Source of the DNA: Pseudomonas chlororaphis
GTDB taxonomy: Bacteria; Pseudomonadota; Gammaproteobacteria; Pseudomonadales; Pseudomonadaceae
Assembly (NCBI RefSeq): GCF_001921865.1
Contig: NZ_MSCT01000019.1
Coordinates: 496,001-560,000, forward strand
Reading direction: 5' to 3'
DNA length: 64,000 nt
In this document: in pieces, positions 5,356 through 27,980 of the stretch
Position numbering within the stretch: the first letter of the stretch is position 1
Layout of the letters: every line of letters starts with the position of its first letter
Program-made: the position numbers and the translations under genes
Notes under the pieces: generated by a model
Told to the model about the DNA's origin: nothing
The model's input: only the letters and a program-made list of their open reading frames with translations
The model's database searches: none

Positions 5356-5551
5356 GCGCAATCACGCTGCCGGCGCCCGCTGGCCGGCACTCGGGGCGTC
5401 CTCCCGTGTATGTCAAACAGATGACCGTTCATCAGATTTTTCTCAGGCAAATGCAGACCAAGCCGATGTTCCGGGCATGGCGCTGAATGGACTTGGCGAC
5501 TCGAGTCAATCGACTCACTGCTCATCACCTACCCATTCGCGAGATCGCCCC

Positions 5552-7690
5552 ATGTTCGACTCTCTGTCCATTCGCCTGAAAATCGTGCTGCTGTCCGGAC
5601 TGTGCCTGCTCGGCGTGGTGGGTCTGATCGTCGGGATGAACATCTACCAGACCAACCAGAACGATCGGTTGGTCAGCAGCTCCAGTACGCGAATGCTCAC
5701 CGACAGCGTGCAGAACCTGCTGCAGGCCCGGGCCGCCGAACAGGCGGTGCGCGTGCAGAAAACCTTTGGCGAAAGCCTGCTGGTGATCACTGCCCTCGCC
5801 GATCAGGTCAGCGACCTGCGGGCCATGGCCGGCAAGCGCTCGCTGGACGCCGCGACGCTGCGCGAAGAACTCAACCACAGCCTGAAAACCGCCTTCGAGC
5901 GCAACACCAAGGTGCTGGGCATCTGGCTCGCCTACGAACCCAACGCCCTCGACGGCAAGGACAGCGAGTTCGCCAACGACGCCGGCCGCGCCTCCAACGA
6001 GGCCGGGCGCTTCGCCAGCTACTGGAGCCGCGCCGGCGGCACCGGGCTGAATACGATGATGGTCGAAGAGGACATGAACAAGACCACCCTGAGCCTCAGC
6101 GGCACGCCGTACAACAGCTGGTACACCTGCCCGCGCGACAACAAGCGCAGCTGCCTGCTGGACCCCTACGCCGACACCGTGGGCGGCAAGCTGATGCTGA
6201 TGACCACCATTTCCCTGCCGCTGATCGTCGACGGCAAAGTCATCGGCGTGGTCGGCGTGGACATCGCCCTGGACTCCCTGCAAGCCGCGGCCGTCGATTC
6301 CCAGCGCGGGCTGTTCGACAGCGCCGGGCACATGCTGATCGTCGCCGGCAGCGGCGTCCTCGCTGCCTACAGCAACGACCCGGCCAAGGTTGGCAAGAAC
6401 ATCGCCGACACCCTCGGCGCTGAAGGCAAGGAGGTCCTGCAACAGCTGGGCGGCGCGGCGCCGAAAGTGCTCAAGCAGGGCGACCTGATCCGCGCCGTGT
6501 ACCCGGTCAGCCCGATTGCCGATGCCCGCCCCTGGGGCGTGGTGATCGACCTGCCGGAACAGGTGTTGCTGGCCGACTCGGTGAAGCTCCAGGCGGTCCT
6601 CGACGACGCCCAGACCCAAGGCACCCTGGTGTCCCTGCTGGTGGCCGCGATCGCTGGTGTGGTTGGCCTGCTGCTGATCTGGCTGACCGCCTCCGGCGTG
6701 ACCCGGCCGATCAACAGCGTCGCGCAGATGCTCAAGGCTATCGCCAGCGGCGACGGCGACCTGACCCAGCGCCTGAACTACACGAAGAAAGACGAACTGG
6801 GCGAACTGGTGAGCTGGTTCAACCGCTTCCTCGACAAGCTGCAACCGACCATCGCACAGATCAAGCAGAGCATCGTCGACGCCCGCGGCACCGCCGACCA
6901 GTCCTCGGAAATCGCCCGCCAGACCAGCGAAGGCATGCAGGTGCAGTTCCGCGAAATCGACCAGGTGGCCACCGCCTCCAACGAAATGAGCGCCACCGCC
7001 CACGACGTCGCCAACAGCGCCTCGAACGCTGCCAATGCCGCCCGCGGCGCCGACCAGTCGGCCAAGGATGGCATGACCATCATCGAGCGCAGCACCCGCG
7101 ACATCAGCACCCTGGCCGATGAAGTCAGCAAGGCGGTGACCGAGGTCGAGGCCCTGGCGGTCAACAGCGAGCAGATCGGCTCGGTGCTGGAAGTGATCCG
7201 CAGCATTGCCGAGCAGACCAACCTGCTGGCCCTCAACGCCGCCATCGAAGCGGCGCGGGCCGGGGAAAGCGGCCGCGGCTTCGCCGTGGTCGCCGACGAA
7301 GTGCGCAACCTGGCCAAGCGCACCCAGGACTCGGTGGAAGAGATTCGCCAGGTGATCGAACGCATCCAGAGCGGCACCCGCGGCGTGGTGGCGACCATGC
7401 ATTCGAGCCAGGCCCAGGCCCAGAGCAACGCCGGGCAGATCCAGCAAGCGGTGCAGGCCCTGGGCAAGATCAGCGACGCGGTCACCGTGATCAGCGACAT
7501 GAACCTGCAGATCGCCAGCGCCGCCGAACAGCAGAGCGCGGTGGCCGAAGAGGTCAACCGCAACGTCTCGGCGATCCGCAGCGTGACCGAATCCCTGACC
7601 GAGCAGGCCACCGAATCGGCCCAGGTCAGCAGCCAGCTCAATACCCTGACCACCCAGCAGATGAAACTGATGGACCAGTTCCGCGTCTGA
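5552..7690 (+). CDS. Methyl-accepting chemotaxis protein, dCache ligand-binding type
   Basis: A 712-residue chemoreceptor. Membrane helix 1 spans about residues 12-33; a periplasmic double-Cache domain (about 40-350) holds the segments [14 protein letters not shown] and [17 protein letters not shown]; helix 2 is about 359-382; then come HAMP (383-437) and a methyl-accepting signalling domain with the conserved hairpin ([21 protein letters not shown]...[15 protein letters not shown], split around the glycine). The ATG at 5552 places the first helix at the usual distance. No C-terminal CheR-binding pentapeptide is visible. The ligand is unknown; the sensor layout is reminiscent of polyamine/histamine receptors (McpU/TlpQ type), which is only a guess. 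Confidence 0.9.
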
Positions 7691-7705
7691 CCCGCATCAC
7701 CCCCT

Positions 7706-7805
7706 GTAGGAGCGAGCTTGCTCGCGATGAACCCGAAAGCGCCGCATTCAGCCAGTGAGTGCGCATCATCGTTGACGAGCATCGCGAGCAAGCTTCGCTC
7801 CTACA
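7706..7805. repeat. REP doublet (inverted pair)
   Basis: An outward-facing pair of REP palindromes (TGTAGGAGCGAGCTTGCTCG... at 7706 and its complement ending at 7805) with about 55 bp between them fills the gap between the chemoreceptor and the CoA-transferase gene. Confidence 0.85.
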
Positions 7806-7885
7806 AATAGTCCGTGCGCCGTGGCAAGGCTGCGGCGCCTCGCCTTTTTGCTCTATGCTGCCCCCTCTCTTGCGGAGGGCCAGCA

Positions 7886-9235
7886 ATGACCGATGTTCTG
7901 TCGTCTATCCAAGCCGCGCTTGGCTTGCCTCGTACCCCGATCCTGTTTACCTCGAGCGGCGCCCTGCCCTCGGCCTTCGCCGTGACCGAACTGGCCAGCG
8001 CCAGCATCGCCGCGGCCGGCCAGGCCACGGCCGAACTGCTGCTCGGCCAGACCGGGCGCCTACCGGCGCTCTGCGTCGACCGCCGCCTTGCCTCCTTCTG
8101 GTTCGCCACCTCGCTGCGCCCGCTTGGCTGGAGCGTGCCGCCGTTGTGGGACCCGGTCGCCGGCGACTACGCCACCCGCGACGGCTGGATTCGCCTGCAC
8201 ACCAACGCGCCCCATCATCGCCAGGCGGCCGAACAGGTGCTGGGGCCGGTCGCGGATCGTCCGGCGATGGCCGCCAGGGTCGCCCAGTGGCACAGCGGCG
8301 AACTGGAGCAGGCGGTGGTCGCGGCCGGCGGCTGCGCGGCCGAGATGCGCAGCTGGGGCGACTGGCAGGCCCACCCCCAGGGGCAGGCGGTGAATGCCGA
8401 GCCGCTGGTGCATTTCACTGCGCCCGCTAACGGCCCGGTGCGGCAATGGAGCGGGACCCTGGCGCAACCTTTGGCCGGCATCAAAGTGCTGGACCTGACT
8501 CGGGTCCTGGCCGGCCCCATCGCCAGCCGCTTCCTCGCCGGGCTGGGCGCCGACGTGCTGCGCATCGACCCGCCGCACTGGAACGAGCCGGGCGTGGTCC
8601 CGGAAGTCACCCTGGGCAAACGCTGCGCCCGCCTGAACCTGCACGACGCCGCCGATCGCCAGGTATTCGACGCCCTGCTGGGCGAAGCCGACCTGCTGCT
8701 GCACGGCTACCGTGGCGATGCCCTGGAACGCCTCGGCTACGGCGCCGCCGAGCGCCTGCGCCTTGCCCCGGGGCTGATCGATGTGAGCCTGAATGCCTAC
8801 GGCTGGAGCGGGCCCTGGCAGAACCGCCGCGGCTTCGACAGCCTGGTGCAGATGAGCTGCGGCATCGCCGAGGCCGGCCAGCGCTGGCAACAGGCCGATA
8901 AACCGGTACCGCTGCCGGTCCAGGCCCTGGACCACGCCACCGGTTACCTGATGGCCGCCGCCGCGCTCCAGGCCCTCAACGCCCAGCTGCAAACCGGGGC
9001 CACCGGCAGCGCGCGGCTCTCCCTGGCACGGACCGCGAAGCTGTTGACCGAGCACTCCAGCGGCGCCGCCGAAGAGGCCCTGCGGGGCGAAGACCAGGCC
9101 GATCAGGGGTTGCTGGTGGAACAGACGCCCTGGGGCCCGGCCCATCGCCTGCACGTGCCGTTGCAGATCAGCGGCACGCCGTTGCAATGGGCGCGCCCGG
9201 CCAGCGAACTGGGCGCCCACCGCGCGCAATGGTAG
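7886..9235 (+). CDS. CaiB/BaiF-family (class III) CoA-transferase
   Basis: This 449-residue protein belongs to the class III CoA-transferases, which move CoA between carboxylic acids without covalent ping-pong of the classical type. The diagnostic stretch GIKVLDLTRVLAGPIASRFLAG sits near residue 200, followed by LGADVLRIDPP and, later, NRRGFDSLVQMSCGIA. There is an unusual 190-residue N-terminal part resembling a second, degenerate CaiB-like half. The ATG at 7886 follows GGAGG (7874-7878). It is monocistronic between repeats and convergent with alkA, so the substrate cannot be inferred from neighbours. Confidence 0.82.
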   Translation: MTDVLSSIQAALGLPRTPILFTSSGALPSAFAVTELASASIAAAGQATAELLLGQTGRLPALCVDRRLASFWFATSLRPLGWSVPPLWDPVAGDYATRDGWIRLHTNAPHHRQAAEQVLGPVADRPAMAARVAQWHSGELEQAVVAAGGCAAEMRSWGDWQAHPQGQAVNAEPLVHFTAPANGPVRQWSGTLAQPLAGIKVLDLTRVLAGPIASRFLAGLGADVLRIDPPHWNEPGVVPEVTLGKRCARLNLHDAADRQVFDALLGEADLLLHGYRGDALERLGYGAAERLRLAPGLIDVSLNAYGWSGPWQNRRGFDSLVQMSCGIAEAGQRWQQADKPVPLPVQALDHATGYLMAAAALQALNAQLQTGATGSARLSLARTAKLLTEHSSGAAEEALRGEDQADQGLLVEQTPWGPAHRLHVPLQISGTPLQWARPASELGAHRAQW

Positions 9236-9264
9236 CCCTCGCCGCCTGCCGTAGCCCTGTAACC

Positions 9265-9413
9265 CTGTAGCCGCTGCCGAGCGTAGCGAGGCTGCGTACG
9301 ACTGCGCAGCAGGCGCAAAACCAGAACACTCGGTTTCCCTGAATTTCCGTGTGGCCCATTTTGCGGCCGCTGCGCGACCGTACGCAGCCTCGCAGGCTCG
9401 GCAGCAGCTACAG
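9265..9413. repeat. Long inverted repeat, second repeat family
   Basis: About 36 bp at 9265-9300 (beginning CTGTAGCCGCTGCCGAGC) recur inverted at 9379-9413 (ending GCTCGGCAGCAGCTACAG) with few mismatches, separated by about 78 bp. It lies between the convergent CoA-transferase and alkA genes. The sequence differs from the GTAGGAGCGAGC REP family but has the same paired architecture. Confidence 0.75.
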
Positions 9414-9422
9414 GGCATGGGT

Positions 9423-10289
9423 TCAAGGGGCCGCGAACGCGGTCCATAAATGCTGCGCCGCATAACCGCGCCAGGGGCGCCAGGCTTCGGCGCGGGCCAG
9501 CAACTGACGAGCCGTGACCGGCCCGCCTTCCAGCGCCGCCAGGGCATTGAGCAGGCCGACGTCGGCCGCGGGAAACGCATCCGCTTCGCGGAATTGGCGC
9601 AGGGCCACGTAATGCGCGGTCCAGTCGCCAACGCCCCACAGCGCCAGCAAGGCCGACAGGCTGTGCTCGAGATCGGCCTTGGGCGCAAACAGCTGCGGGT
9701 CGTCGAGCACCGCCTGGGCCACGCCGGACAAGGTTCGCCCACGACTGCGCGGCATGCCCAGGCTCGCCAGGTCGGCGCCGGCCATCCGCGCCGGCTCGGG
9801 GAACACATGGCTCAAGCCCGCCGGCGCCGCCACGCAACGCAGCGGCTGGCCGTACTGCGCCACCAGCTTGCCCGCCAGGCGAATGGCCGCGCCCACCGTG
9901 ATCTGCTGCCCCAATACCGCGCGCACCGCCAGCTCGAAGCCGTCCCAGGCGCCGGGCACGCGCAGCCCCGGACGGGCAGCGATCAAACGCGCCAGCAGCG
10001 GGTCGGCGCACAAGTGCCGATGGATCGGTGCCAAGTCAGCGTCCAGGTCCAGCAGACGACGAATGCGCGCCACGATCTGCGCCTTGGCCAGGGGGTCGGG
10101 AAAATCCAGGGTCAGGACCAGCGCCTCGCTGTCGCCCGGGGCCACGCTGAACCAGCCGTGCCCGCCGTCGAAGCTGATGCTGCGCGAATAACGGTCGCCG
10201 CTGACTGTCTCCAGCCCTTCGATGGCCCGCATCCGGAGAAAGTCCAGCATCGCCGGCCAATCGTAAGGTGGCCGATAAACCAGCCTCAC
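9423..10289 (-). CDS. alkA: DNA-3-methyladenine glycosylase II (AlkA)
   Basis: This 288-residue base-excision repair enzyme removes alkylated purines. The N-terminal AlkA beta domain (RPPYDWPAMLDFLRMRAI) precedes the helix-hairpin-helix / GPD segment LLALWGVGDWTAHYVALR, with the catalytic aspartate in AFPAADVGL. GQQITV (helix residues near 140) is also typical. The start is GTG at 10289, which overlaps the TGA of the upstream permease gene by four bases (GTGA), so translation is probably coupled. No Ada-type regulator is nearby. Coupling to an amino-acid antiporter is unexpected. Confidence 0.88.
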   Translation of the reverse strand: MRLVYRPPYDWPAMLDFLRMRAIEGLETVSGDRYSRSISFDGGHGWFSVAPGDSEALVLTLDFPDPLAKAQIVARIRRLLDLDADLAPIHRHLCADPLLARLIAARPGLRVPGAWDGFELAVRAVLGQQITVGAAIRLAGKLVAQYGQPLRCVAAPAGLSHVFPEPARMAGADLASLGMPRSRGRTLSGVAQAVLDDPQLFAPKADLEHSLSALLALWGVGDWTAHYVALRQFREADAFPAADVGLLNALAALEGGPVTARQLLARAEAWRPWRGYAAQHLWTAFAAP

Positions 10290-14902: not shown

Positions 14903-15044
14903 CCCGACGCTGTGAAAGCGTAGCGAGCGCAGGAAAGACAAGGCAAAAACAGGCGAGGAAGCGGAGTCTACTGGTTGTAAATGAGCATTCCGAGCCTGTT
15001 TTTAACGCAGTATTTCCAAGCGCAGTAGCTTTCACAGTGTCGGG
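14903..15044 (+). repeat. 142-nt foldback element between arcA and arcB
   Basis: The outer arms CCCGACGCTGTGAAAGC (14903-14919) and GCTTTCACAGTGTCGGG (15028-15044) pair with one mismatch. An inner perfect 10-bp stem joins AAAAACAGGC (14945-14954) to GCCTGTTTTT (14994-15003), and GCGCAGGAAA / TTTCCAAGCGC can pair between them. The element fills almost the whole gap and its right arm touches the arcB ribosome binding site GGAAGGAG (15043-15050). It could be a mobile repeat, an RNA processing site or a translational control structure. Confidence 0.75.
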
Positions 15045-15057
15045 AAGGAGAATCATC

Positions 15058-16068
15058 ATGGCTTTCAATATCCACAACCGTAACCTGCTCAGCCTCGAAC
15101 ACCACACCCCGCGCGAGCTGCGCTACCTGCTCGACCTGTCCCGCGACCTCAAGCGCGCCAAGTACACCGGCACCGAGCAGCAGCACCTCAAGGGCAACAA
15201 CATCGCGCTGATCTTCGAGAAGACCTCGACCCGCACCCGCTGCGCCTTCGAGGTGGCCGCCTACGACCAGGGCGCCAACGTTACCTACATCGACCCGAAC
15301 TCGTCGCAGATCGGCCACAAGGAAAGCATGAAGGACACCGCCCGCGTGCTGGGGCGCATGTACGACGCCATCGAGTACCGCGGCTTCAAGCAGGAGATCG
15401 TCGAAGAGCTGGCGAAATTCGCCGGGGTCCCGGTGTTCAACGGCCTGACCGACGAATACCACCCGACCCAGATGATCGCCGACGTGCTGACCATGCGCGA
15501 ACACGCCGACAAGCCGATCCACGACATCAGCTACGCCTACCTGGGCGATGCCCGCAACAACATGGGCAACTCGCTGCTGCTGGTGGGCGCCAAGCTCGGC
15601 ATGGACGTGCGCATCTGCGCGCCGAAGGCCCTGTGGCCCCATGACGACCTGGTCGAGCGTTGCAAAAAATACGCAGCCGAAAGCGGTGCCCGCATCACCC
15701 TCACCGACGACCCGAAAGCCGCGGTCAAGGGCGTCGACTTCATCCACACCGACGTCTGGGTCTCCATGGGCGAACCGGTGGAAGCCTGGGCCGAGCGCAT
15801 CCAGCAACTGCTGCCGTACCAGGTCAACACCGAGCTGATGAAGGCCACCGGCAACCCGCGGACCAAGTTCATGCACTGCCTGCCGGCGTTCCACAACAGC
15901 GACACCAAGGTCGGCAAGCAGATCGCCGAGCAGTATCCGCACCTGGCCAACGGCATCGAAGTCACCGACGACGTGTTCGAGTCGCCGGCCTGCATCGCCT
16001 TCGAGCAGGCGGAAAACCGCATGCACACCATCAAGGCGATCCTGGTCTCGACCCTGGCTGACCTGTAA
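15058..16068 (+). CDS. arcB: Ornithine carbamoyltransferase, catabolic (ArcB)
   Basis: Phosphorolyses citrulline to ornithine and carbamoyl phosphate. It is 336 residues long. [16 protein letters not shown] is the carbamoyl-phosphate-binding STRTR motif; [12 protein letters not shown] and MHCLPAFHN (ornithine-binding HCLP) are present. The position in arcDABC and the [20 protein letters not shown] start mark it as the catabolic enzyme rather than ArgF. The ATG at 15058 has a strong GGAAGGAG site directly after the arcA-arcB foldback element; a GTG at 15037 lies within that element's arm and is rejected. Confidence 0.96.
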
Positions 16069-16078
16069 ATCCGACGTC

Positions 16079-16105
16079 GGGGCCGATCGCCTGGCGATCG
16101 GCCCC
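16079..16105 (+). repeat. Strong hairpin between arcB and arcC
   Basis: GGGGCCGATCGC (16079-16090) pairs with GCGATCGGCCCC (16094-16105) across a three-base loop. No T-run follows, so it is more likely an mRNA processing or stability structure inside the operon than a terminator. A half REP unit (TGTAGGAGCGAGG...) follows at 16111. Confidence 0.65.
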
Positions 16106-16212
16106 CAATCTGTAGGAGCGAGGCTTGCCCGCGATGGCGTCACACCTGACACCACACGATCGCCGGCAAGCCGCGCGCCCACGGGATCACCGAATTCTGG
16201 AAGGAATGCATT

Positions 16213-17142
16213 ATGCGTATCGTCGTTGCACTGGGCGGTAACGCCCTCCTGCGCCGTGGTGAACCCATGACCGCGGACAATCAACGCGCCAATATCCGGA
16301 TCGCCACCGAACAGATCGCCAAGATCCACCCTGGCAACCAGCTGGTCATCGCCCACGGCAACGGTCCGCAAGTCGGCCTGCTGTCGTTGCAGGCGGCGGC
16401 CTACACCTCGGTATCGCCGTACCCGCTGGACGTGCTCGGCGCCGAAACCGAAGGCATGATCGGCTACATCATCGAACAGGAACTGGGCAACCTGCTGGAC
16501 TTCGAAGTGCCCTTCGCCACCTTGCTGACCCAGGTCGAAGTCGACGCCAAGGACCCCGCGTTCCAGAACCCGACCAAGCCCATCGGCCCGGTCTACAGCA
16601 AGGAAGAAGCGGAAAGACTCGCCAAGGAAAAAGGCTGGGCCATCGCCCCCGACGGCGACAAGTACCGCCGCGTGGTGGCCAGCCCGAAACCCAAGCGCAT
16701 CTTCGAGATCCGCCCGATCAAGTGGCTGCTGGACAAGAGCAGCATCGTGATCTGCGCCGGCGGTGGCGGTATCCCGACCATGTACGGCGAGGACGGCAAA
16801 CTCAGGGGCATCGAGGCCGTCATCGACAAGGACCTGTGCTCGGCGCTGCTGGCCGAACAGCTGGAAGCCGACCTGCTGGTGATCGCCACCGACGTCAACG
16901 CGGCCTTTATCGACTGGGGCAAGCCGTCGCAGAAAGCCATCGCCCAGGCGCACCCGGACGAAATGGAAAAACTCGGCTTCGCCGCCGGCTCTATGGGACC
17001 CAAGGTCCAGGCGGCCTGCGAGTTCGCCCGCCACACTGGAAAAGTCGCGGTGATCGGTTCACTCTCGGATATCGAGGCGATTGTCCAGGGCAAGGCCGGC
17101 ACCCGCATCAGCACGGCCAAACCGGGCATCACTTACCTATAA
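16213..17142 (+). CDS. arcC: Carbamate kinase ArcC
   Basis: Makes ATP from ADP and carbamoyl phosphate, the energy-yielding last step of the arginine deiminase pathway. The 309-residue protein carries the amino-acid kinase fold signatures [15 protein letters not shown] at the N-terminus, [13 protein letters not shown] near 50-62, and [12 protein letters not shown] near 180. Its ATG has AAGGAA upstream. It closes the arcDABC operon. Confidence 0.96.
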
Positions 17143-17205
17143 AAAAGCCACTCCGGGGGCAGATCCAGAGTCTGTCCCTGTCCCATGCCTTGAAAGGAGA
17201 GAGCC

Positions 17206-17568
17206 ATGGCCCAGTTCGAACCCGGTCATCTACACATCGAGCGACATGCGCTGACCAAGGACGATGTCAGCTACAACATCTGCATCGACTACGAGGTCGC
17301 GCAAGATCCCAAGGAAGGCAAGGGGATGCAGTTCAAAATGCACGGAACGATCCAGGGCAAGGAGGTCAACGAACCGTTCTTCCTGCCCAAGGATCAGGCT
17401 TACAACTTCGCCAGCAACGTGACGAAAATCGCCGAGAACTATGGGATTCCCAAGGCCCTGAGCAGCATCGGTTCGCTGCACAAGTACTACGACGCGATGT
17501 TCGAGGATGTGCGGGTGCAGTTGAATATGAAATCCGGCGACCCGGTGAAGCCCGAACACCTGGAGTGA
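17206..17568 (+). CDS. Conserved hypothetical protein (DUF5064-like)
   Basis: A 120-residue soluble protein with no signal peptide or membrane segment, starting MAQFEPGHLHIERHALT. It resembles a small Pseudomonas-restricted family annotated DUF5064; this assignment is from memory of the N-terminal pattern. A strong AAAGGAGAGA precedes the ATG. It lies 63 bp after arcC in the same direction with no terminator seen between, so it may be the last gene of the arc transcript. Function is unknown. Confidence 0.75.
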   Translation: MAQFEPGHLHIERHALTKDDVSYNICIDYEVAQDPKEGKGMQFKMHGTIQGKEVNEPFFLPKDQAYNFASNVTKIAENYGIPKALSSIGSLHKYYDAMFEDVRVQLNMKSGDPVKPEHLE

Positions 17569-17585
17569 TTCCCTGTCCGCTTACG

Positions 17586-17688
17586 TGTAGGAGAGAGGCT
17601 TGCCCGCGAAAGTCGTCGACGATGACGCGGGAAGCCTGATCCGCCGCGGCGTCCTCAAGCTCATCGCGAGCAAGCTTCGCTCCTACAC
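17586..17688. repeat. REP doublet (inverted pair)
   Basis: A slightly degenerate unit (TGTAGGAGAGAGGCTTGCCCG) at 17586 faces a canonical inverted unit (ATCGCGAGCAAGCTTCGCTC) ending at 17688. It separates the arc cluster from gcsR. Confidence 0.8.
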
Positions 17689-17780
17689 AAGCCCTGGCAG
17701 ACCGTACGGCGCATTTCACCAAACCCCTCCCGCCAAGGCATACTTGCCACCCTCCGTTTTCCAGAACCGTCAGCCACCCC

Positions 17781-19289
17781 ATGCGTATCCACGTCAGTTT
17801 CATCGACCGCGTCGGCATCACCCAGGAAGTCCTGGCCCTGCTCGGTGGACGCAACCTCAATCTGGATGCGGTGGAAATGGTTCCCCCCAACGTCTACATC
17901 GACGCTCCGACCCTCAGCCCGCAGGTGCTGGAAGAATTGCGCGACGCGCTGTTCAGCGTGCGCGGCGTGCAGGCGGTGACCGTGGTCGACATTCTCCCCG
18001 GCCAGCGCCGCCACCTGCAGCTCGATGCCCTGCTGGCGGCCATGACCGACCCGGTGCTGGCCCTGGACAGCGCCGGCAAGGTGCTGCTGGCCAACCCGGC
18101 GCTGATTGCCCTCTACGGCCGCGAACCGGCCGGGGAAAGCGTCGCCGAGCTGTTCGACGATCCGGCATTGCTGGACACCCTGCTGGAACAGGGTTTTCGC
18201 CTGCCCCTGCGGGAAATCACCCTCAATGGCCAGACCCTGTTGCTGGACGCTACGCCGATCACCGACGCCGGCGCGCTGCTGACGTTGTATCAGCCCAACC
18301 GCATCGGCGAGCGGCTGTCGGCGCTGCACCATGACCATGCCGAGGGTTTCGACGCCCTGCTCGGCGAATCACCGGCCATCCGCACCCTCAAGGCCCGCGC
18401 CCAGCGTGTCGCCGCGCTGGACGCGCCGCTGCTGATCCAGGGCGAAACCGGCACCGGCAAGGAACTGGTGGCCCGCGCCTGCCACGCCATCAGCGCGCGG
18501 CACAATGCGCCGTTCCTCGCGCTGAACTGCGCTGCCCTGCCGGAAAACCTCGCCGAAAGCGAGCTGTTCGGGTATGCCCCCGGGGCCTTTACCGGCGCCC
18601 AGCGCGGCGGCAAGCCGGGGCTGATGGAGCTGGCCAACCAGGGCACGGTGTTTCTCGACGAGATCGGCGAGATGTCGCCTTACCTGCAGGCCAAGCTGTT
18701 GCGGTTTCTCAACGACGGCAGCTTCCGCCGGGTCGGCGGCGACCGCGAGATCAAGGTCAATGTACGCATCCTCAGCGCCACCCACCGCAACCTGGAAAAG
18801 ATGGTCGCCGAAGGCAGTTTCCGCGAAGACCTGTTCTATCGCCTGAACGTGCTGAATGTGGAAGTCCCGCCGCTGCGCGAGCGCGGCCAGGACATCCTGC
18901 TGCTGGCGCGCTATTTCATGCAGCAAGCCTGCGCGCAAATCCAGCGCCCGATCTGCCGCCTGGCGCCCGGCACCTACCCGGCGCTGCTGGACAACCGCTG
19001 GCCCGGCAACGTGCGCCAGTTGCAGAACGTGATCTTCCGCGCGGCGGCGATCTGCGAAAGCAGCCTGGTGGACATCGGCGACCTGGACATCGCCGGCACC
19101 TCGGTGGCACGCCAGAACGACAGCGAAGTCGAAAGCCTGGAACAGGCCGTCGAAGAGTTCGAGAAGGCGCTGCTCGAGGGCCTCTACGTCAACTACCCCT
19201 CGACCCGCCAGCTCGCCAGCCGCCTGCAGACCTCCCACACCGCCATCGCCCATCGCCTGCGCAAATACGGCATCCCCAACAAGCCCTGA
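17781..19289 (+). CDS. gcsR: TyrR-like sigma-54 activator GcsR (glycine-responsive)
   Basis: A 502-residue enhancer-binding protein with an N-terminal ACT domain (residues 1-70, [21 protein letters not shown]), a PAS domain (about 78-150), an AAA+ domain with Walker A GETGTGKE at 221-228 and an intact sigma-54 contact loop GAFTGA at 268-273, and a C-terminal TyrR-type helix-turn-helix ([22 protein letters not shown]). In P. aeruginosa GcsR activates the glycine cleavage operon in response to glycine. Here it lies directly upstream of gcvHP-sdaA-gcvT, and three sites resembling its binding sequence precede gcvH, supporting the assignment over PhhR. Confidence 0.9.
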
Positions 19290-19301
19290 AGCAGACTGCT
19301 C

Positions 19302-19409
19302 TTTTGTAGGAGCGAAGCTTGCTCGCGATGAACGTGAGAACGCCGCATGACTGCTGAGGCACCGCGTCGTCCTTGAGAGCTATCGCGAGCAAGCTTCGCT
19401 CCTACAAAA
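19302..19409. repeat. REP doublet with perfect 28-bp arms
   Basis: The arm starting TTTTGTAGGAGCGAAGCTTG at 19302 is repeated exactly inverted at 19382-19409. It separates gcsR from its target promoter and may help end gcsR transcription. Confidence 0.88.
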
Positions 19410-19433
19410 AAAGCGCGAAAAGCGACCTCTACC

Positions 19434-19451
19434 TGTACTGAAAGCGCTACA
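19434..19451. promoter_or_regulatory. GcsR-type binding site 1
   Basis: TGTACTG-AAAG-CGCTACA, a partial match to the GcsR 18-bp consensus (TGTAACG-N4-CGTTCCG as I recall it). It starts 19 bp before site 2. Confidence 0.6.
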
Positions 19452-19452
19452 G

Positions 19453-19470
19453 CGGAACGATATCGCTACA
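19453..19470. promoter_or_regulatory. GcsR-type binding site 2
   Basis: CGGAACG-ATAT-CGCTACA, whose complement reads TGTAGCG-N4-CGTTCCG, the closest match to the GcsR consensus in the window. Confidence 0.7.
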
Positions 19471-19533
19471 GACGCTCTTCATAGGCACTGCGCAAGGCTT
19501 TGATCCCCATAGGCTTTTTCCAAGGCATGCAGC

Positions 19534-19551
19534 TGTAGCGATTTCGCTACA
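19534..19551. promoter_or_regulatory. GcsR-type binding site 3
   Basis: TGTAGCG-ATTT-CGCTACA, a perfect palindrome, 81 bp downstream of site 2 and about 100 bp upstream of the predicted transcription start. Confidence 0.7.
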
Positions 19552-19583
19552 GCTATCAAAATCAAGCTTCCGGAAAATCATCA

Positions 19584-19596
19584 TAAGTTATTGATT
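19584..19596 (-). promoter_or_regulatory. IHF binding site
   Basis: On the minus strand AATCAA-TAAC-TTA matches the IHF consensus WATCAA-N4-TTR at every position. It lies between the GcsR sites and the sigma-54 promoter, where DNA bending would bring activator and polymerase together. Confidence 0.65.
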
Positions 19597-19615
19597 AATA
19601 ACAACTAATAAACAT

Positions 19616-19631
19616 TGGCCGCGTTTTTGCT
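19616..19631 (+). promoter_or_regulatory. Sigma-54 promoter for gcvH operon
   Basis: TGGCCGCGTTTTTGCT carries GG at 19617-19618 and GC at 19629-19630, exactly 10 bases apart, as required for -24/-12 promoters. The predicted start is near 19642, about 70 bp before gcvH. Confidence 0.75.
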
Positions 19632-19712
19632 AAGGGATTACCCATTCGGCTCTGCCCCGCATGAGCATTCAATCGCGTCCACCAGACGAATCTGGCCCCT
19701 TGAGGAGTTTCC

Positions 19713-20096
19713 ATGAGCGAGTTGCGTTTTACTGAAGATCACGAATGGCTGCGTACCGAAGCCGACGGCAGCGTTACCGTCGGCATCACGGCTTTCGCGC
19801 AAAACGCCCTGGGCGATGTGGTGTTCGTGCAATTGCCGGAGCTGCAGGTCTACGACAAGGGTGCGGAAGCCGCCACCGTGGAATCGGTAAAAGCCGCCAG
19901 CGGTGTGTACATGCCCCTGGACGGTGAAGTGGTCGCCACCAACCCGGCCCTGGAAGACAGCCCGGAACTGGTCAACGAAGACCCGCTGGGCGAAGGCTGG
20001 TTCTTCCGCTTCATTCCCGCGGACGCCGCCGCTGTCGGCCAATTGCTGGATCAGGACGCCTACGACCGCCTGATCAAAGCCAACGCCGAAGCCTGA
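19713..20096 (+). CDS. gcvH: Glycine cleavage system H protein
   Basis: The 127-residue lipoyl carrier shuttles the aminomethyl group between the P and T proteins. The lipoylated lysine is Lys60 in ESVKAASG. The start LRFTEDHEWLRTE and the GLGEGW-like GEGWFFRF are family hallmarks. TTGAGGAG precedes the ATG. It is the first gene of the GcsR-regulated operon, and gcvP starts 9 bp after its stop, corresponding to the gcvH2 copy of P. aeruginosa. Confidence 0.96.
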   Translation: MSELRFTEDHEWLRTEADGSVTVGITAFAQNALGDVVFVQLPELQVYDKGAEAATVESVKAASGVYMPLDGEVVATNPALEDSPELVNEDPLGEGWFFRFIPADAAAVGQLLDQDAYDRLIKANAEA

Positions 20097-20105
20097 GGAG
20101 CCGCC

Positions 20106-22967
20106 ATGAGCATCAAGCCAAACCTGAACACCGCCAACGAATTCATCGCGCGCCACATCGGCCCCCGCGCCGGCGACGAGCAAGCCATGCTCAACAGCCT
20201 GGGCTTCGACTCCCTGGAAGCCCTGAGCGCCAGCGTAATTCCCGACAGCATCAAGGGCACCAGCGTGCTCGACCTGCCGGCCGGGCAGAGCGAAGCCGAC
20301 GCACTGGCCTCGATCAAGGCCATCGCCGCGAAAAACCAGCTGTTCAAGACCTACATCGGCCAGGGCTACTACAACTGCCATACGCCGTCGCCGATCCTGC
20401 GCAACCTCCTGGAAAACCCGGCCTGGTACACCGCCTACACCCCGTACCAGCCAGAGATTTCCCAGGGTCGCCTGGAAGCGCTGCTGAACTTCCAGACCCT
20501 GATCAGCGACCTCACCGGCCTGCCGATCGCCAACGCCTCCCTGCTCGACGAAGCCACCGCCGCCGCCGAAGCCATGACCTTCTGCAAGCGCCTGAGCAAG
20601 AACAAGGGCAGCCACGTCTTCTTCGCCTCCATCCACTGCCATCCGCAGACCCTCGACGTACTGCGTACCCGCGCCGAGCCGCTGGGTATCGACGTGGTGG
20701 TCGGCGACGAGCGCGAACTGAGCGATGTCAGCGCCTTCTTCGGCGCCCTGCTGCAATACCCGGCGAGCAACGGTGACCTGTTCGACTACCGCCAACTGAC
20801 CGAGCGTTTCCACGCCGCCAATGCCCTGGTGGCGGTCGCCGCCGACCTGCTGGCGCTGACCGTGCTGACCCCGCCGGGCGAATTCGGCGCCGACGTGGCC
20901 ATCGGCAGCGCCCAGCGCTTCGGCGTGCCACTGGGCTTCGGCGGCCCGCATGCCGCTTACTTCTCCACCAAGGACGCGTTCAAGCGCGACATGCCGGGCC
21001 GTCTGGTCGGCGTTTCCGTGGACCGTTTCGGCAAGCCGGCGCTGCGCCTGGCCATGCAGACCCGCGAGCAACATATCCGTCGCGAGAAAGCCACCAGCAA
21101 CATCTGCACCGCCCAGGTCCTGCTGGCCAACATCGCCAGCATGTACGCCGTGTATCACGGCCCCGAAGGCCTGACCCGGATTGCCCAACGCATCCACCAG
21201 CTGACCTCGATCCTGGCCCAGGGCCTGAGCAAACTGGGGGTCAAGGTCGAGCAAGAGAGTTTCTTCGACACCCTGACCCTGCACACCGGCGCGCGTACCG
21301 CGGCGTTGCACGACCAGGCACGCGCCCAGCGTATCAACCTGCGGGTGATCGACGCCGAGCGCCTCGGCCTGTCGCTGGATGAAACCACCGGCCAGGCCGA
21401 TATTGAAACCCTCTGGAGCCTGCTGGCCGACGGCCAGGCCCTGCCGGACTTCGCCGCGCTGGCCACCACCGCGCAGAGCCGCATCCCGCCAGCGCTGGTG
21501 CGCCAGTCGGCGATCCTCAGCCACCCGGTGTTCAACCGCTACCACTCGGAAACCGAGCTGATGCGCTACCTGCGCAAGCTGGCCGACAAGGACCTGGCGC
21601 TGGACCGCACCATGATCCCGCTGGGCTCGTGCACCATGAAGCTCAACGCCGCCAGCGAAATGATCCCGATCACCTGGGCCGAATTCGGTGCCCTGCACCC
21701 GTTCGCCCCGGCCGAGCAAAGCGCCGGTTACCAGCAGCTGACCTCCGAGCTGGAAGCCATGCTCTGCGCCGCCACCGGCTACGACGCGGTGTCCCTGCAA
21801 CCGAACGCCGGCTCCCAGGGCGAGTACGCCGGCCTCTTGGCCATCCGTGCCTATCACCAGAGCCGCGGCGACGACCGTCGCGACATCTGCCTGATCCCGT
21901 CCTCCGCCCACGGCACCAACCCGGCCACCGCCAACATGGCCGGCATGCGCGTGGTAGTCACCGCCTGCGATGCCCGCGGCAACGTCGATATCGAAGACCT
22001 GCGGGCCAAGGCCATCGAGCACCGCGAACACCTCGCCGCGCTGATGATCACCTACCCGTCGACCCACGGCGTGTTCGAGGAAGGCATCCGCGAAATCTGC
22101 GGCATCATTCACGACAACGGCGGCCAGGTGTACATCGACGGCGCCAACATGAACGCCATGGTCGGCCTCTGCGCCCCGGGCAAGTTCGGCGGCGACGTGT
22201 CGCACCTGAACCTGCACAAGACCTTCTGCATTCCCCACGGCGGCGGCGGCCCGGGCGTCGGCCCGATCGGCGTCAAGTCGCACCTGGCGCCGTTCCTGCC
22301 TGGCCACGCGGCCATGGAGCGCAAGGAAGGCGCGGTCTGCGCCGCGCCGTTCGGCAGCGCGAGCATCCTGCCGATCACCTGGATGTACATCCGCATGATG
22401 GGCGGCGAAGGCCTCAAGCGCGCCTCGCAGTTGGCGATCCTCAATGCCAACTACATCTCCCGGCGCCTGGAGGAGCACTACCCGGTGCTCTACACCGGCA
22501 GCAACGGCCTGGTGGCCCACGAGTGCATCCTCGACCTGCGCCCGCTCAAGGACAGCAGCGGCATCAGCGTCGACGACGTCGCCAAGCGCTTGATCGACTT
22601 CGGCTTCCACGCCCCGACCATGTCGTTCCCGGTAGCTGGCACCCTGATGATCGAGCCGACCGAAAGCGAATCCAGGGAAGAACTGGACCGCTTCTGCGAC
22701 GCCATGATCCGCATCCGCGAAGAAATCCGCGCGGTGGAAAACGGCAGCCTGGACAAGGACGACAACCCGCTGAAAAACGCCCCGCACACCGCGGCGGAAA
22801 TCGTCGGTGAATGGTCGCACCCCTATAGCCGCGAACAGGCGGTGTACCCGGTGGCCTCGCTGGTCGAAGGCAAGTACTGGCCGCCTGTGGGCCGGGTCGA
22901 CAACGTGTTCGGCGACCGCAACCTGGTCTGCGCCTGCCCGTCGATCGAAAGCTACCAGGACGCGTAA
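20106..22967 (+). CDS. gcvP: Glycine dehydrogenase (decarboxylating), P protein
   Basis: The 953-residue PLP enzyme decarboxylates glycine and loads the remaining aminomethyl group on GcvH. It has the full bacterial single-chain length. The PLP lysine is Lys705 in [16 protein letters not shown], and the glycine-rich loop follows it. The N-terminal domain shows FIARHIGPR and [13 protein letters not shown], both typical. GAGGAG lies before the ATG. A REP doublet follows the stop, and sdaA, not glyA, is next. Confidence 0.97.
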
Positions 22968-22982
22968 GACGGCCTAGCCGTC

Positions 22983-23049
22983 CATCGCGGGCCAGCCTCG
23001 CTCCTACAGTTTCTGCGTATACCTTGTAGGAGCGAGCTTGCTCGCGATG
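22983..23049. repeat. REP doublet inside the gcv operon
   Basis: ATCGCGGGCCAGCCTCGCTC at 22983 and the inverted unit TGTAGGAGCGAGCTTGCTCG ending at 23049 lie between gcvP and sdaA, at the position where glyA occurs in P. aeruginosa. Confidence 0.85.
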
Positions 23050-23132
23050 AGCGCCAAGGCGCTCGACGCGCAAATGCACCATCCGTTTCCCCCTGCGTGC
23101 CGATCCACACAATAAGAAACCGGAGAACCAAC

Positions 23133-24509
<1,377 letters not shown>

Positions 24510-24549
24510 TGCCGGCACACGCGCATCTCACGTTTACCAGGAGCTGAAC

Positions 24550-25674
24550 ATGTCCACCGAAATACTGTTGAAGACCCCGCTGCATGCGCTGCACCTCGAG
24601 CTCGGCGCGCGCATGGTGCCGTTCGCCGGCTACGACATGCCCGTGCAATACCCGCTGGGCGTGATGAAGGAACACCAGCACACCCGCGAGCAGGCCGGCC
24701 TGTTCGACGTCTCGCACATGGGGCAGATCCGCCTGACCGGCGCCAACGCCGCCCAGGCCCTGGAAACCCTGGTGCCGGTAGACATCATCGACCTGCCCGT
24801 GGGCATGCAGCGCTATGCCATGTTCACCAACGAAAGCGGTGGCATCCTCGACGACCTGATGGTCGCCAACCTGGGTAACGACGAGCTGTTCCTGGTGGTC
24901 AACGCCGCCTGCAAGGATCAGGACCTGGCCCATCTGCGCCAGCACATCGGCCAGGCATGCCGCATCGAGCCGCTGTTCGAGGAGCGGGCCCTGCTCGCCC
25001 TGCAAGGTCCGGCGGCCGTCACCGTTCTGGCGCGCCTGGCGCCGGAAGTGGCGAAAATGACCTTCATGCAATTCACCCGCGTGAAGCTGCTGGGCGAGGA
25101 CTGCTTTGTCAGCCGTTCGGGCTACACCGGTGAAGACGGTTTCGAAATCTCCGTACCGGCCGCCGCGGCCGAAACACTGGCCCGCGCCCTGCTGGCCGAG
25201 CCGGAAGTGGCCGCCATCGGCCTCGGCGCACGCGACTCGCTGCGCCTGGAAGCCGGCCTGTGCCTGTATGGCCACGACATGAACAGCCAGACCACGCCGA
25301 TCGAAGCCAGCCTGCTGTGGGCCATCTCCAAGCCGCGCCGCGCCGATGGCGTACGGGCCGGCGGTTTTCCCGGCGCCGAACAGGTGTTCGCCCAACAACT
25401 CAAGGGGGTGAGCCGCAAGCGCGTGGGCCTGCTGCCCCAGGAACGTACCCCGGTGCGTGAAGGCGCGGAAATCGTCGATGAAGCAGGCACTGTGATCGGT
25501 AGCGTCTGCAGCGGCGGCTTTGGGCCGACCCTGGGCGGTCCGTTGGCGATGGGTTACCTCGATAGCGCCTATGTCGCACTCGATACGCCAGTCTGGGCAA
25601 TTGTTCGTGGGAAAAAGGTGCCAATGCTTGTAAGCAAAATGCCATTCGTTGCACAACGCTATTATCGAGGTTGA
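24550..25674 (+). CDS. gcvT: Aminomethyltransferase, T protein of glycine cleavage
   Basis: The 374-residue enzyme transfers the methylene group from GcvH to tetrahydrofolate, releasing ammonia. Family motifs are [13 protein letters not shown] near the N-terminus, [28 protein letters not shown] and [20 protein letters not shown] (folate-binding aspartate region). CAGGAG precedes the ATG and the gap from sdaA is 40 bp. It ends the operon. Confidence 0.96.
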
Positions 25675-26067
25675 GTAGCTGTTTCCTTAAGTAACGCGGT
25701 TGCGTTAAAAGTGCACTAATCTGTAACGCAACCGCCATAAAACAGTGCATTTCTTCGATATTGAACTTGCCTTATAACAGCTGAAAACAATTGAACAACT
25801 CTATCGAATAAGGGCGAACGGCTAGTACCGGCAAACAGCCGCCAGGCTGAACAAAACCGGGTGTTTCGCAGGGCTTGTATTTTCTCCCATAGTTGGCGTA
25901 GAGTTTCCCCACTGTGTTTGCATGGGTCGCTTGGAATCGTGACCTGGGCAGTAGCCAACAAGTTTGCTACACCCGTTCGACGTCTCTTACTTTCCTGCAA
26001 CCCAGCCCAGTACTCTTTCATGAGAAAGAGACTGTCATTAATTTTTTAGCGTCAAAGGAAATAAGAA
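25675..26067 (+). other. Gene-free leader region before the cold-shock gene
   Basis: These 393 bases hold no convincing gene. They contain a clear hairpin CTCTTTC-ATGA-GAAAGAG at 26013-26030, about 40 bases before the cold-shock start. Long structured leaders are usual for csp mRNAs, so this is probably a long 5' untranslated region, but no promoter was defined. Confidence 0.5.
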
Positions 26068-26280
26068 ATGTCCCAACGTCAGAGCGGTACCGTCAAGTGG
26101 TTTAACGACGAGAAAGGTTTTGGTTTTATCACTCCAGAAAGCGGTCCGGATCTGTTCGTGCATTTCCGCGCCATTCAGGGCAACGGCTTCAAAAGCCTGA
26201 AAGAAGGCCAGAAAGTAACCTTCATCGCTGTGCAGGGCCAAAAAGGCATGCAGGCTGACGAAGTACAAGCTGAAGGCTGA
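26068..26280 (+). CDS. Cold-shock protein (CspA/CapB family)
   Basis: A 70-residue single cold-shock domain that binds single-stranded RNA/DNA. Both RNA-binding motifs are intact: KGFGFI (RNP1, residues 16-21) and LFVHF (RNP2, about 30-34). AAAGGAAATAAGA precedes the ATG, and a strong terminator follows. Several paralogues exist in Pseudomonas, so no specific letter symbol is given. A second cold-shock domain occurs in the window, fused to membrane helices, at 48232. Confidence 0.94.
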
Positions 26281-26292
26281 TCGTCTGTAACG

Positions 26293-26327
26293 AAAAAGCC
26301 CCTGATGCTGACATCAGGGGCTTTTTT
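26293..26327 (+). terminator. Rho-independent terminator after the cold-shock gene
   Basis: Perfect stem GCCCCTGATG / CATCAGGGGC (26298-26307, 26312-26321) with a CTGA loop and six T residues. Confidence 0.92.
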
Positions 26328-26373
26328 GTGCGCGCAATTCCGTAATATGGCTTCTTTTTCTTGGAGCCCTGCC

Positions 26374-26862
26374 ATGTCGAAACCCTTGCTGAGCCCCCAG
26401 GGCGAATTTCCCGCTGCTGGTCTGGGCCGCCGTCTGGCAGCGATGTTCTACGATTTCCTGCTGTGCACCGCCTTGCTGATTGTCACAGGCGGCATCTATA
26501 AAATGATCCAACTGCAGATCCTCGGCGAAACGCGGATGCGCGCCCTGACCGAGTCCGGCGCCCTGGATGGCGACCCCCTCTACTCGACCGTCCTGTTGTT
26601 TGTGCTGTTCGCCTTCTTCGCCAAGTTCTGGACCCATTCCGGGCAGACCTTGGGCATGCAAGTCTGGGGCATACGCGTGCAGAACGCCGACGGCAGTCGC
26701 ATCAGCCTGTGGCAAGCGCTCTTGCGTTTCATGGTTTCGATCGCGTCCTGGCTGTGCGCCGGGCTGGGTTTCCTCTGGGTCCTGATCGACAAACAGCAAC
26801 GCAGCTGGCACGACATCTACTCCTCCAGCCAGATCGTGCGTATCCCCAAACAGAAAAAGTAG
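26374..26862 (+). CDS. RDD-family inner membrane protein
   Basis: A 162-residue protein with the RDD signature (LGRRLAAMFYDFLLCTALL, about residues 14-32), a second helix (about 67-85, TVLLFVLFAFFAKFWTH), and GQTLGMQVWGIRV, followed by a third helix near 120-140 and the C-terminal WHDIYSSSQIV. Family members are small membrane proteins, some implicated in ion exchange, but function here is unknown. The ATG at 26374 has GGAG at 26363-26366; an earlier in-frame start at 26305 would lie inside the preceding terminator. Confidence 0.85.
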   Translation: MSKPLLSPQGEFPAAGLGRRLAAMFYDFLLCTALLIVTGGIYKMIQLQILGETRMRALTESGALDGDPLYSTVLLFVLFAFFAKFWTHSGQTLGMQVWGIRVQNADGSRISLWQALLRFMVSIASWLCAGLGFLWVLIDKQQRSWHDIYSSSQIVRIPKQKK

Positions 26863-26875
26863 CCAGCCACCAACA

Positions 26876-26905
26876 AAAACGCCCCGAACCGTCGGGGCGT
26901 TTTTT
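26876..26905. terminator. Bidirectional terminator between the RDD gene and nadA
   Basis: Stem ACGCCCCGA / TCGGGGCGT (26879-26887, 26892-26900) is flanked by A-run and T-run and serves both convergent genes. Confidence 0.9.
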
Positions 26906-26921
26906 GTGCTGTCAGCAATGA

Positions 26922-27980
26922 TCAGGCATTGCCCGCCAACTTCATCCGCGCAGCCTGGGTGAAATCGAGCATGCGCTTGAGTGGCCGGATCGCCTGGGGA
27001 ATCAACGCCGGGTCCACGAATATCTCGTTACTGCCTTCACGCAGGCACTGCAGGGTGCGCTCCAGGGTGTTCATGGCCATCCATGGGCAATGGGCACAGC
27101 TGCGGCAAGCCGCGCCGTTACCCGCCGTAGGCGCTTCGATAAACACCTTGTCCGGGCACAGCTGCTGCATCTTGTAGAAAATGCCGCGGTCGGTGGCCAC
27201 GATCAGCGTCTTGTTCGGCAGGCGTTGCGCAGCGGCAATCAGCTGGCTGGTGGAGCCCACCGCGTCCGCCAGTTCGATCACCGAAGTCGGCGACTCCGGG
27301 TGAACCAGAATGGCCGCATCGGGATAGAGCGCCTTCATGTCTTCCAGCTGCTTGGACTTGAACTCCTCGTGGACGATGCAGGCGCCGTCCCACAGCAGCA
27401 TATCGGCACCGGTCTGGCGCTGAATATAGGTTCCCAGGTGCTTGTCCGGTCCCCAGATGATGGTCTCGCCGTTATCCATCAGGCTCTCGACGATCTCCAG
27501 CGCGCAACTGGAGGTCACGACCCAGTCGGCACGTGCTTTGACCGCGGCCGAGGTATTGGCGTAGACCACGACGGTACGTTCCGGGTGCTGGTCGCAGAAC
27601 GTCGAGAACTCGTCCACCGGGCATCCCAGGTCGAGGGAGCAGGTCGCTTCCAGCGTGGGCATCAGCACACGCTTCTCGGGGTTGAGAATCTTCGCCGTCT
27701 CGCCCATGAATTTTACCCCAGCGACCACCACGGTCTTGGCCGGGTGAGCGTTGCCGAAACGGGCCATTTCCAGGGAGTCGGATACACAGCCGCCGGTTTC
27801 TTCGGCCAGGGCCTGAATCACCGGGTCACAGTAGAAATGCGCCACCAATACCGCATCCTGAGCCTTGAGCTCGGCGGCGATGGCAGCACGGTAATGAGCC
27901 TCCTCGGCAGCGCTGAGCGGTTTCGGCTGCTTGGCGTCGAGATGGGCTTGAACCAGAAGGCGTTCGGAAATTTGCGTCAT
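26922..27980 (-). CDS. nadA: Quinolinate synthase NadA
   Basis: Condenses iminoaspartate and dihydroxyacetone phosphate to quinolinate in NAD synthesis, using a [4Fe-4S] cluster. The 352-residue length, [19 protein letters not shown] at the N-terminal third, [12 protein letters not shown], the cluster cysteine in [10 protein letters not shown] and the final [13 protein letters not shown] motif are all as expected. It is monocistronic here and marks the left border of the accessory secretion locus. Confidence 0.97.

Follow-up and report, generated by a model that had tools for sequence, protein, structure and literature searches.

The DNA between gcsR and gcvH of Pseudomonas chlororaphis very probably forms a control region for glycine catabolism, in which a GcsR enhancer, a bend introduced by integration host factor (IHF) and a sigma-54 promoter serve the genes gcvH-gcvP-sdaA-gcvT. 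In the window (the whole stretch of 64,000 nucleotides that was analysed), three predicted GcsR sites are followed by a predicted IHF site, a promoter motif and gcvH, and the coordinates confirm this order, which an initial annotation had proposed. The system itself is already known and ordinary in kind; what the sequence comparisons appear to add are two facts, a conserved IHF site and a near-rigid split spacing. Neither the precision of the spacing nor the IHF site of the GcsR switch seems to have been examined in published work.

How would such a region operate? GcsR dimers would occupy the three sites, here called S1, S2 and S3, and in response to glycine would form an AAA+ hexamer that joins the S1-S2 pair to S3 over the 81-bp gap. 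IHF, if it binds at 19584-19596, would bend the DNA between S3 and the promoter, and the GAFTGA loops of the hexamer could then reach the sigma-54 RNA polymerase at 19616-19631. ATP hydrolysis would open the promoter, with transcription starting near 19642, and a conserved block in the gap between S2 and S3 may carry a second bend. The promoter is presumed to be active in this strain and to transcribe the four genes as an operon.

Genes and regulator in the window

The gene order is a carbamate-kinase-like gene (named by eye), a DUF5064 gene, gcsR, gcvH, gcvP, sdaA and gcvT. The regulator gene gcsR (17781-19289, plus strand) encodes a TyrR-like sigma-54 enhancer-binding protein of 502 amino acids, with matches to Sigma54_activat (228 bits) and HTH_50 (51 bits), and its translated product carries the intact GAFTGA loop that had been ascribed to it. 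Pfam finds no ACT domain in the protein and places PAS marginally below threshold (22.3 bits versus a cut-off of 22.6). Judged by profile score, it is TyrR-like and is not classed as a TyrR, the equivalog NF008085 giving 457.1 bits against a curated cut-off of 576. Among the matches listed, P. brassicacearum 48H11 has the closest named GcsR, at 96% identity; identity computed against the nearest relatives is 93-97%, and the PAO1 study sets its own orthologue criterion at >80% identity to PAO1 GcsR (PMC4894688).

On the plus strand downstream lie gcvH, encoding the glycine cleavage H protein (19713-20096), gcvP (20106-22967), sdaA, encoding L-serine ammonia-lyase (23133-24509), and gcvT (24550-25674), which score above the cut-offs of TIGR00527, TIGR00461, TIGR00720 and TIGR00528, respectively; the sdaA start at 23133 was picked by eye, and the mechanical open reading frame list gives 23097. 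No glyA is found between gcvP and sdaA of the window, the position that glyA2 occupies in P. aeruginosa PAO1 according to the portion of the PAO1 report available (PMC4894688). The genome from which the window comes encodes rpoN, ihfA and ihfB, all with scores above cut-offs.

Several other features were observed near these genes. A perfect inverted repeat with 28-nt arms (19302-19329 and 19382-19409, 52 nt apart), which we take to be REP-like, lies between gcsR and S1, and a 12-nt inverted repeat of related sequence (22997-23036) lies between gcvP and sdaA. A match to the cspA thermoregulator RNA family occurs 3' of gcvT (25922-26326), at 78.2 bits against a gathering score of 78. The search of 15000-27000 for RNA families gave three matches at E up to 1, all of them away from the control region, and no sigma-70 promoter or terminator was recognized by consensus within 19280-19730.

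Predicted GcsR sites and promoter

The initial annotation described three 18-bp GcsR-type sites, spaced by 19 and then 81 bp, and both coordinates and matrix scores agree with that description. Predicted site S1 (19434-19451, TGTACTGAAAGCGCTACA) is the distal and weakest of the three at 17.1 bits; S2 (19453-19470, CGGAACGATATCGCTACA), at 22.4 bits, starts 19 bp after S1; and S3 (19534-19551, TGTAGCGATTTCGCTACA), the strongest at 25.3 bits and with perfect palindromic arms, starts 81 bp after the start of S2. When the 64-kb window was scanned with a weight matrix, S3, S2 and S1 took ranks 1, 2 and 3, the next best position scoring 13.8 bits. The matrix drew its counts only from 66 promoters <68% identical to the window promoter, whose sites had first been located with an earlier matrix that took in the window. 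A Markov background of 5 Mb yielded no position scoring as high as S2 or S3, and 0.8 per Mb scoring as high as S1. In the 6.76-Mb genome, S3 is the only exact occurrence of TGTANCGNNNNCGNTACA. The window has three 18-bp sites like TGTAACG-N4-CGTTCCG 5' of gcvH.

The predicted sigma-54 promoter reads as the -24/-12 motif TGGCCGCGTTTTTGCT at 19616-19631 on the plus strand, ahead of gcvH, with GG at 19617-19618 and GC at 19629-19630. The GG-N10-GC spacing noted at the outset is present within a TGGC...TTGC context, and the motif implies a transcription start that would fall at or near 19642. The distance from S1 to the GG is 183 bp.

Promoters compared

A search for GcsR across 199 genomes of the genus found it in 190 at E up to 1e-150. 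The region after gcsR was taken from 100 of these 190 genomes, picked by hand; adding the window and 19 named loci from Pseudomonas brought the set to 120 sequences. In 70 of them gcvH lies near gcsR; in the other 50 it does not, and one of these (L011) ends soon after gcsR. A direct search for gcvH in the 45 fetched genomes among those 50, and in nine genomes with no gcsR match, found some gcvH in all 54; eight of the nine have only a gcvH1 type, 54-58% identical, and no gcvH2. The comparison was then enlarged by 46 gcvH2-type upstream regions (L207-L252), in which no gcvH turned up in the roughly 750 bp next to gcsR (45 genomes, in some of which it is 1-2 kb off) or gcsR is unmatched (one genome), and by 14 extra regions, 13 from genomes with a second gcsR copy and one with a broken gcsR. 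Three sites above cut-off are present in 128 of the resulting 130 gcvH2-type promoters and two sites in the others (L202 and L243); dropping these two-site promoters and two exact duplicates left 126 for analysis. Among 14 gcvH1 upstream regions used as controls, six of them from genomes with no gcsR match and with start codons placed approximately, none had a site above cut-off.

Individual genomes in this sample showed further arrangements. A fragmented genome with no GcsR match at 1e-150 (G123, locus L237) also has a gcvH2-type gene, 72% identical, with all three sites in its promoter. A second gcsR, 71-85% identical, occurs in some pseudomonads together with a gcvH and a GcsR-site promoter of its own (L193-L205), and at eight of these loci (L193-L200) the second gap is 69-70 bp. 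In the second cluster of L197 (5912-8771), gcvH is followed by serine hydroxymethyltransferase and lipoyl-synthase-like genes; gcvP has no match in the stretch covered for L197-L200, and in L194 it matches at its two ends only. At the locus where the gcsR frame is broken (L206, near residue 365), gcvH, three GcsR sites and an 8/9 IHF match are retained. In P. sivasensis (L028), the place expected for gcvH after gcsR is taken by an open frame of 1,326 codons on the minus strand (5519-9499).

Spacing of the sites among relatives

The initial annotation singled out the split spacing as worth testing, and among the 126 distinct gcvH2 promoters the spacing proves, as judged from predicted sites, to be nearly fixed. 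The step from S1 to S2, which was not imposed in the count, is 19 bp in 125 promoters and 20 bp in one. The gap from S2 to S3 is 81 bp in 81 promoters and 79-82 bp in 105, with further groups at 69-71 bp (11 promoters) and 91-92 bp (six) and single promoters at 55, 57, 77 and 134 bp. From S3 to the first G of the -24 element the distance is 80-85 bp in 123 promoters, 72 bp in two and 94 bp in one; the count required a GG-N10-GC motif and left its distance free. These near-fixed spacings argue that the S1-S2 pair and S3 act jointly. Of the 80 promoters with the 19/81 spacing, 54 survive thinning at 80% identity over the gap, which indicates that the sequence of the gap has changed while its length has been kept.

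The layout extends to other genera of the family. Among 30 loci from 24 genomes of ten genera, scanned with the 19-bp step imposed, the full layout occurs in 18, from six genera; at the remaining 12, gcvH was not found in the stretch covered. The second gap in the 18 is 81-85 bp in 14, 71 bp in two, and 57 and 58 bp in one each.

Do the departures from the common spacing follow the turns of the helix? Comparing spacing classes and nearest neighbours by hand, rather than on a species tree, gave 13 spacing changes, three of them from the scan in which 19 bp was imposed. Eight of the 13 fall no more than 1.5 bp from a multiple of 10.5, the distance being exactly 1.5 bp for one of them (binomial p 0.013; V-test p 0.015). 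The other five (-4, -24, -26, -23.5 and -13) fall off this helical ladder, and gaps of 55, 57 and 77 bp violate any strict helical rule; these comparisons are suggestive only. A link between odd spacing and loss of the IHF match was considered and rejected (5 of 14 promoters with no match versus 18 of 112 with one; Fisher p 0.13, not significant).

A described regulon becomes, in this way, a natural spacing experiment: more than 100 natural promoters keep the geometry with near base-pair precision, and variants that are a turn shorter, a turn longer or missing IHF are built in. The closing of one AAA+ ring from three dimers on split sites is also a mechanical question for sigma-54 activators.

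The predicted promoter-proximal IHF element

The predicted IHF site TAAGTTATTGATT lies on the minus strand at 19584-19596 and starts 32 bp before the promoter motif. It is the reverse complement of AATCAATAACTTA and agrees with all nine specified positions of the IHF consensus WATCARNNNNTTR, so that the perfect consensus reported for this DNA stands. The accompanying question about the site is answered, as far as sequence can answer it, by its apparent conservation: the interval between S3 and the promoter contains a 9/9 match in 86 of the 126 promoters and a match of at least 8/9 in 113, versus 1.1% and 18.5%, respectively, of 2,520 dinucleotide shuffles that keep the AT content. A minus-strand match of at least 8/9 stands exactly 32 bp before the promoter motif in 106 promoters and at -30 to -34 in 111; in the promoter with 94 bp between S3 and the promoter (L242), the match is shifted to -42. 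Across 101 promoters left after thinning, the letters WATCAA and the two T's carry 0.87-1.35 bits and the intervening N4 0.21-0.44. Since the consensus letters are kept and the N4 varies, the element has the pattern of IHF contacts and not merely that of an AT-rich block. In 14 of the 126 promoters the stretch from -44 to -24 relative to the promoter motif has no match of 8/9, and IHF therefore cannot be necessary in every lineage.

The available main text of the P. aeruginosa study by Sarwar (2016) is silent on IHF (PMC4894688). A search limited to open-licence papers turned up no title dealing with IHF or site spacing at gcvH, and no paper combining gcvH, IHF, Pseudomonas and RpoN; in the accessible part of one review, GcsR and integration host factor are both named, in separate places only.

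A conserved block in the S2-S3 gap

A conserved block, CAAGGCTTTGATC-N9-TTTTT, occupies the middle of the interval between S2 and S3 on the minus strand (19493-19519) and agrees with 8/9 IHF positions. Matches of at least 8/9 occur inside the gap in 71 of the 126 promoters versus 4.1% of shuffles, and in 63 promoters they share one position and strand. An A-tract precedes GATCAA by about nine bases on the minus strand, as it does at the lambda H' site. The block departs from IHF sites in that its first letter is G rather than A/T in most promoters and its N4 is partly as conserved as the consensus letters, and it is missing in many promoters of other lineages. Three promoters have 9/9 at this position (L016, L219 and L223), and in L223 the N4 differs and the promoter-proximal match has been lost. 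The 13-bp core has one exact match in the genome, the window's own, and 22 copies with one mismatch; the reversed pattern has none. The block may hold a second bend, as a candidate IHF-like element.

Occurrence outside Pseudomonas

Among 11 GcsR-like loci scanned outside Pseudomonas (L019-L027, L029 and L030, with L031-L080 left out), only L019, from a Thauera MAG, passed the combined site and promoter test. In this single case the sites are spaced at 19 and 81 bp, a -24/-12 motif follows 81 bp further on, and an 8/9 IHF match stands at -31, all on the strand that leads to a Na+/alanine symporter gene, with a 51-codon open frame between. In Desulfoluna (L030), also a single case among the 11, the gene of a 35% identical regulator is followed by three sites at 19/69 spacing, with alanine dehydrogenase and symporter genes downstream; the first two sites overlap the end of the regulator frame, and from the start of the third site it is 198 bp to the start of a strong -24/-12 motif.

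A broader model, which we put forward tentatively and would not yet bet on, is that the GcsR enhancer is a two-bend phase-locked scaffold: a second IHF-type bend, at the gap block, would fold the S1-S2 pair onto S3 and so let three dimers close a hexamer, and the proximal IHF would present that hexamer to the sigma-54 polymerase. Spacing would then shift mainly by whole turns (69-71, 79-82, 91-92 and 134 bp, with some exceptions), and the 19/81 plan would also serve GcsR-like regulators of alanine genes outside Pseudomonas.

Alternative readings of the layout

Perhaps the split sites are really two units, S3 activating alone and S1-S2 acting separately, for example as a repressing operator or on gcsR. 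The top or joint top score of S3 in 97 of the 126 promoters would suit such a division, as would E. coli TyrR, which represses through paired boxes. Separate units, however, would not need the 79-82 bp kept between S2 and S3 in 105 promoters, nor gap changes whose larger members tend toward whole helical turns (8/13); moreover, both S1 and S2 precede gcvH in 45 of the 46 regions L207-L252, L243 being one site short. We consider this division unlikely. Less likely still is a layout retained by descent alone, with its spacing under no constraint. The promoters are indeed all related: single-linkage clustering at 60-70% identity gave one dominant cluster, with all 126 together at 65%, and is of little use for independent counts. 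Against this, the gap has diverged in sequence at constant length, and the 19/81/81 layout recurs ahead of the Thauera symporter gene under a regulator 59% identical.

It is similarly improbable that the three-site GcsR/sigma-54 control is right while 19584-19596 acts as AT-rich DNA, UP-like or with an intrinsic bend, or as a site for a nucleoid protein other than IHF, such as HU. Such a reading gains from the AT-richness of the S3-promoter interval (mean 63%) and from the promoters that have no match, but it fits poorly with a consensus conserved around a variable N4 at one position and strand, and with the rarity of perfect matches in AT-preserving shuffles. The preferred reading is still joint action of the three GcsR sites with IHF at a sigma-54 promoter.

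Comparison with known systems

The closest relative of the window is gcs2 of P. aeruginosa PAO1, in which, as far as the available text goes, a TyrR-like regulator adjoins the operon, three 18-bp sites precede a sigma-54 promoter and gcvH comes first (PMC4894688). That study reported three shifts with GcsR, loss of binding on site mutation, a requirement for GcsR and RpoN, and induction by glycine (PMC4894688, Sarwar 2016), and a GcsR 3D-seq peak has been placed at gcvH2 of P. aeruginosa in the accessible part of another (PMC9159945). A 200-bp PAO1 probe 5' of the RpoN site held all three sites, which is compatible with the 183 bp from S1 to GG in the window. The PAO1 gene set is gcvH2-gcvP2-glyA2-sdaA-gcvT2, whereas the window has no glyA between gcvP and sdaA. 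No discussion of exact spacing was found in the text available, and the comparison draws on the published description of the PAO1 system. Published control of gcs2 by GcsR and RpoN (PMC4894688) fits the sequence, gene context and orthology of the window and is to that extent supported here.

The operators of E. coli TyrR at aroF are like GcsR sites in being 18-bp palindromic boxes bound by a TyrR-family protein. TyrR at aroF represses a sigma-70 promoter, and a scan upstream of aroF gave two clear boxes 52 bp apart, with further candidates weak and no 19/81 plan. In the PhhR-phhA region of the same genome as the window, the best box reached 9/12 and the 19/81 plan was not seen.

A position between activator sites and promoter is customary for IHF. 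At the CbrB promoters of P. putida (crcZ, crcY and PP2810), the available text describes activator sites, an IHF consensus and GG-N10-GC, with IHF dependence demonstrated; the CbrB subsites are non-palindromic and variable in spacing, contrary to the near-fixed spacing of GcsR sites (PMC6296734). At norVW of E. coli, three enhancer sites scaffold a higher-order oligomer of NorR, a protein of a different family from GcsR, and that oligomer is, in the part of the report available, most likely a hexamer (PMC2941729).
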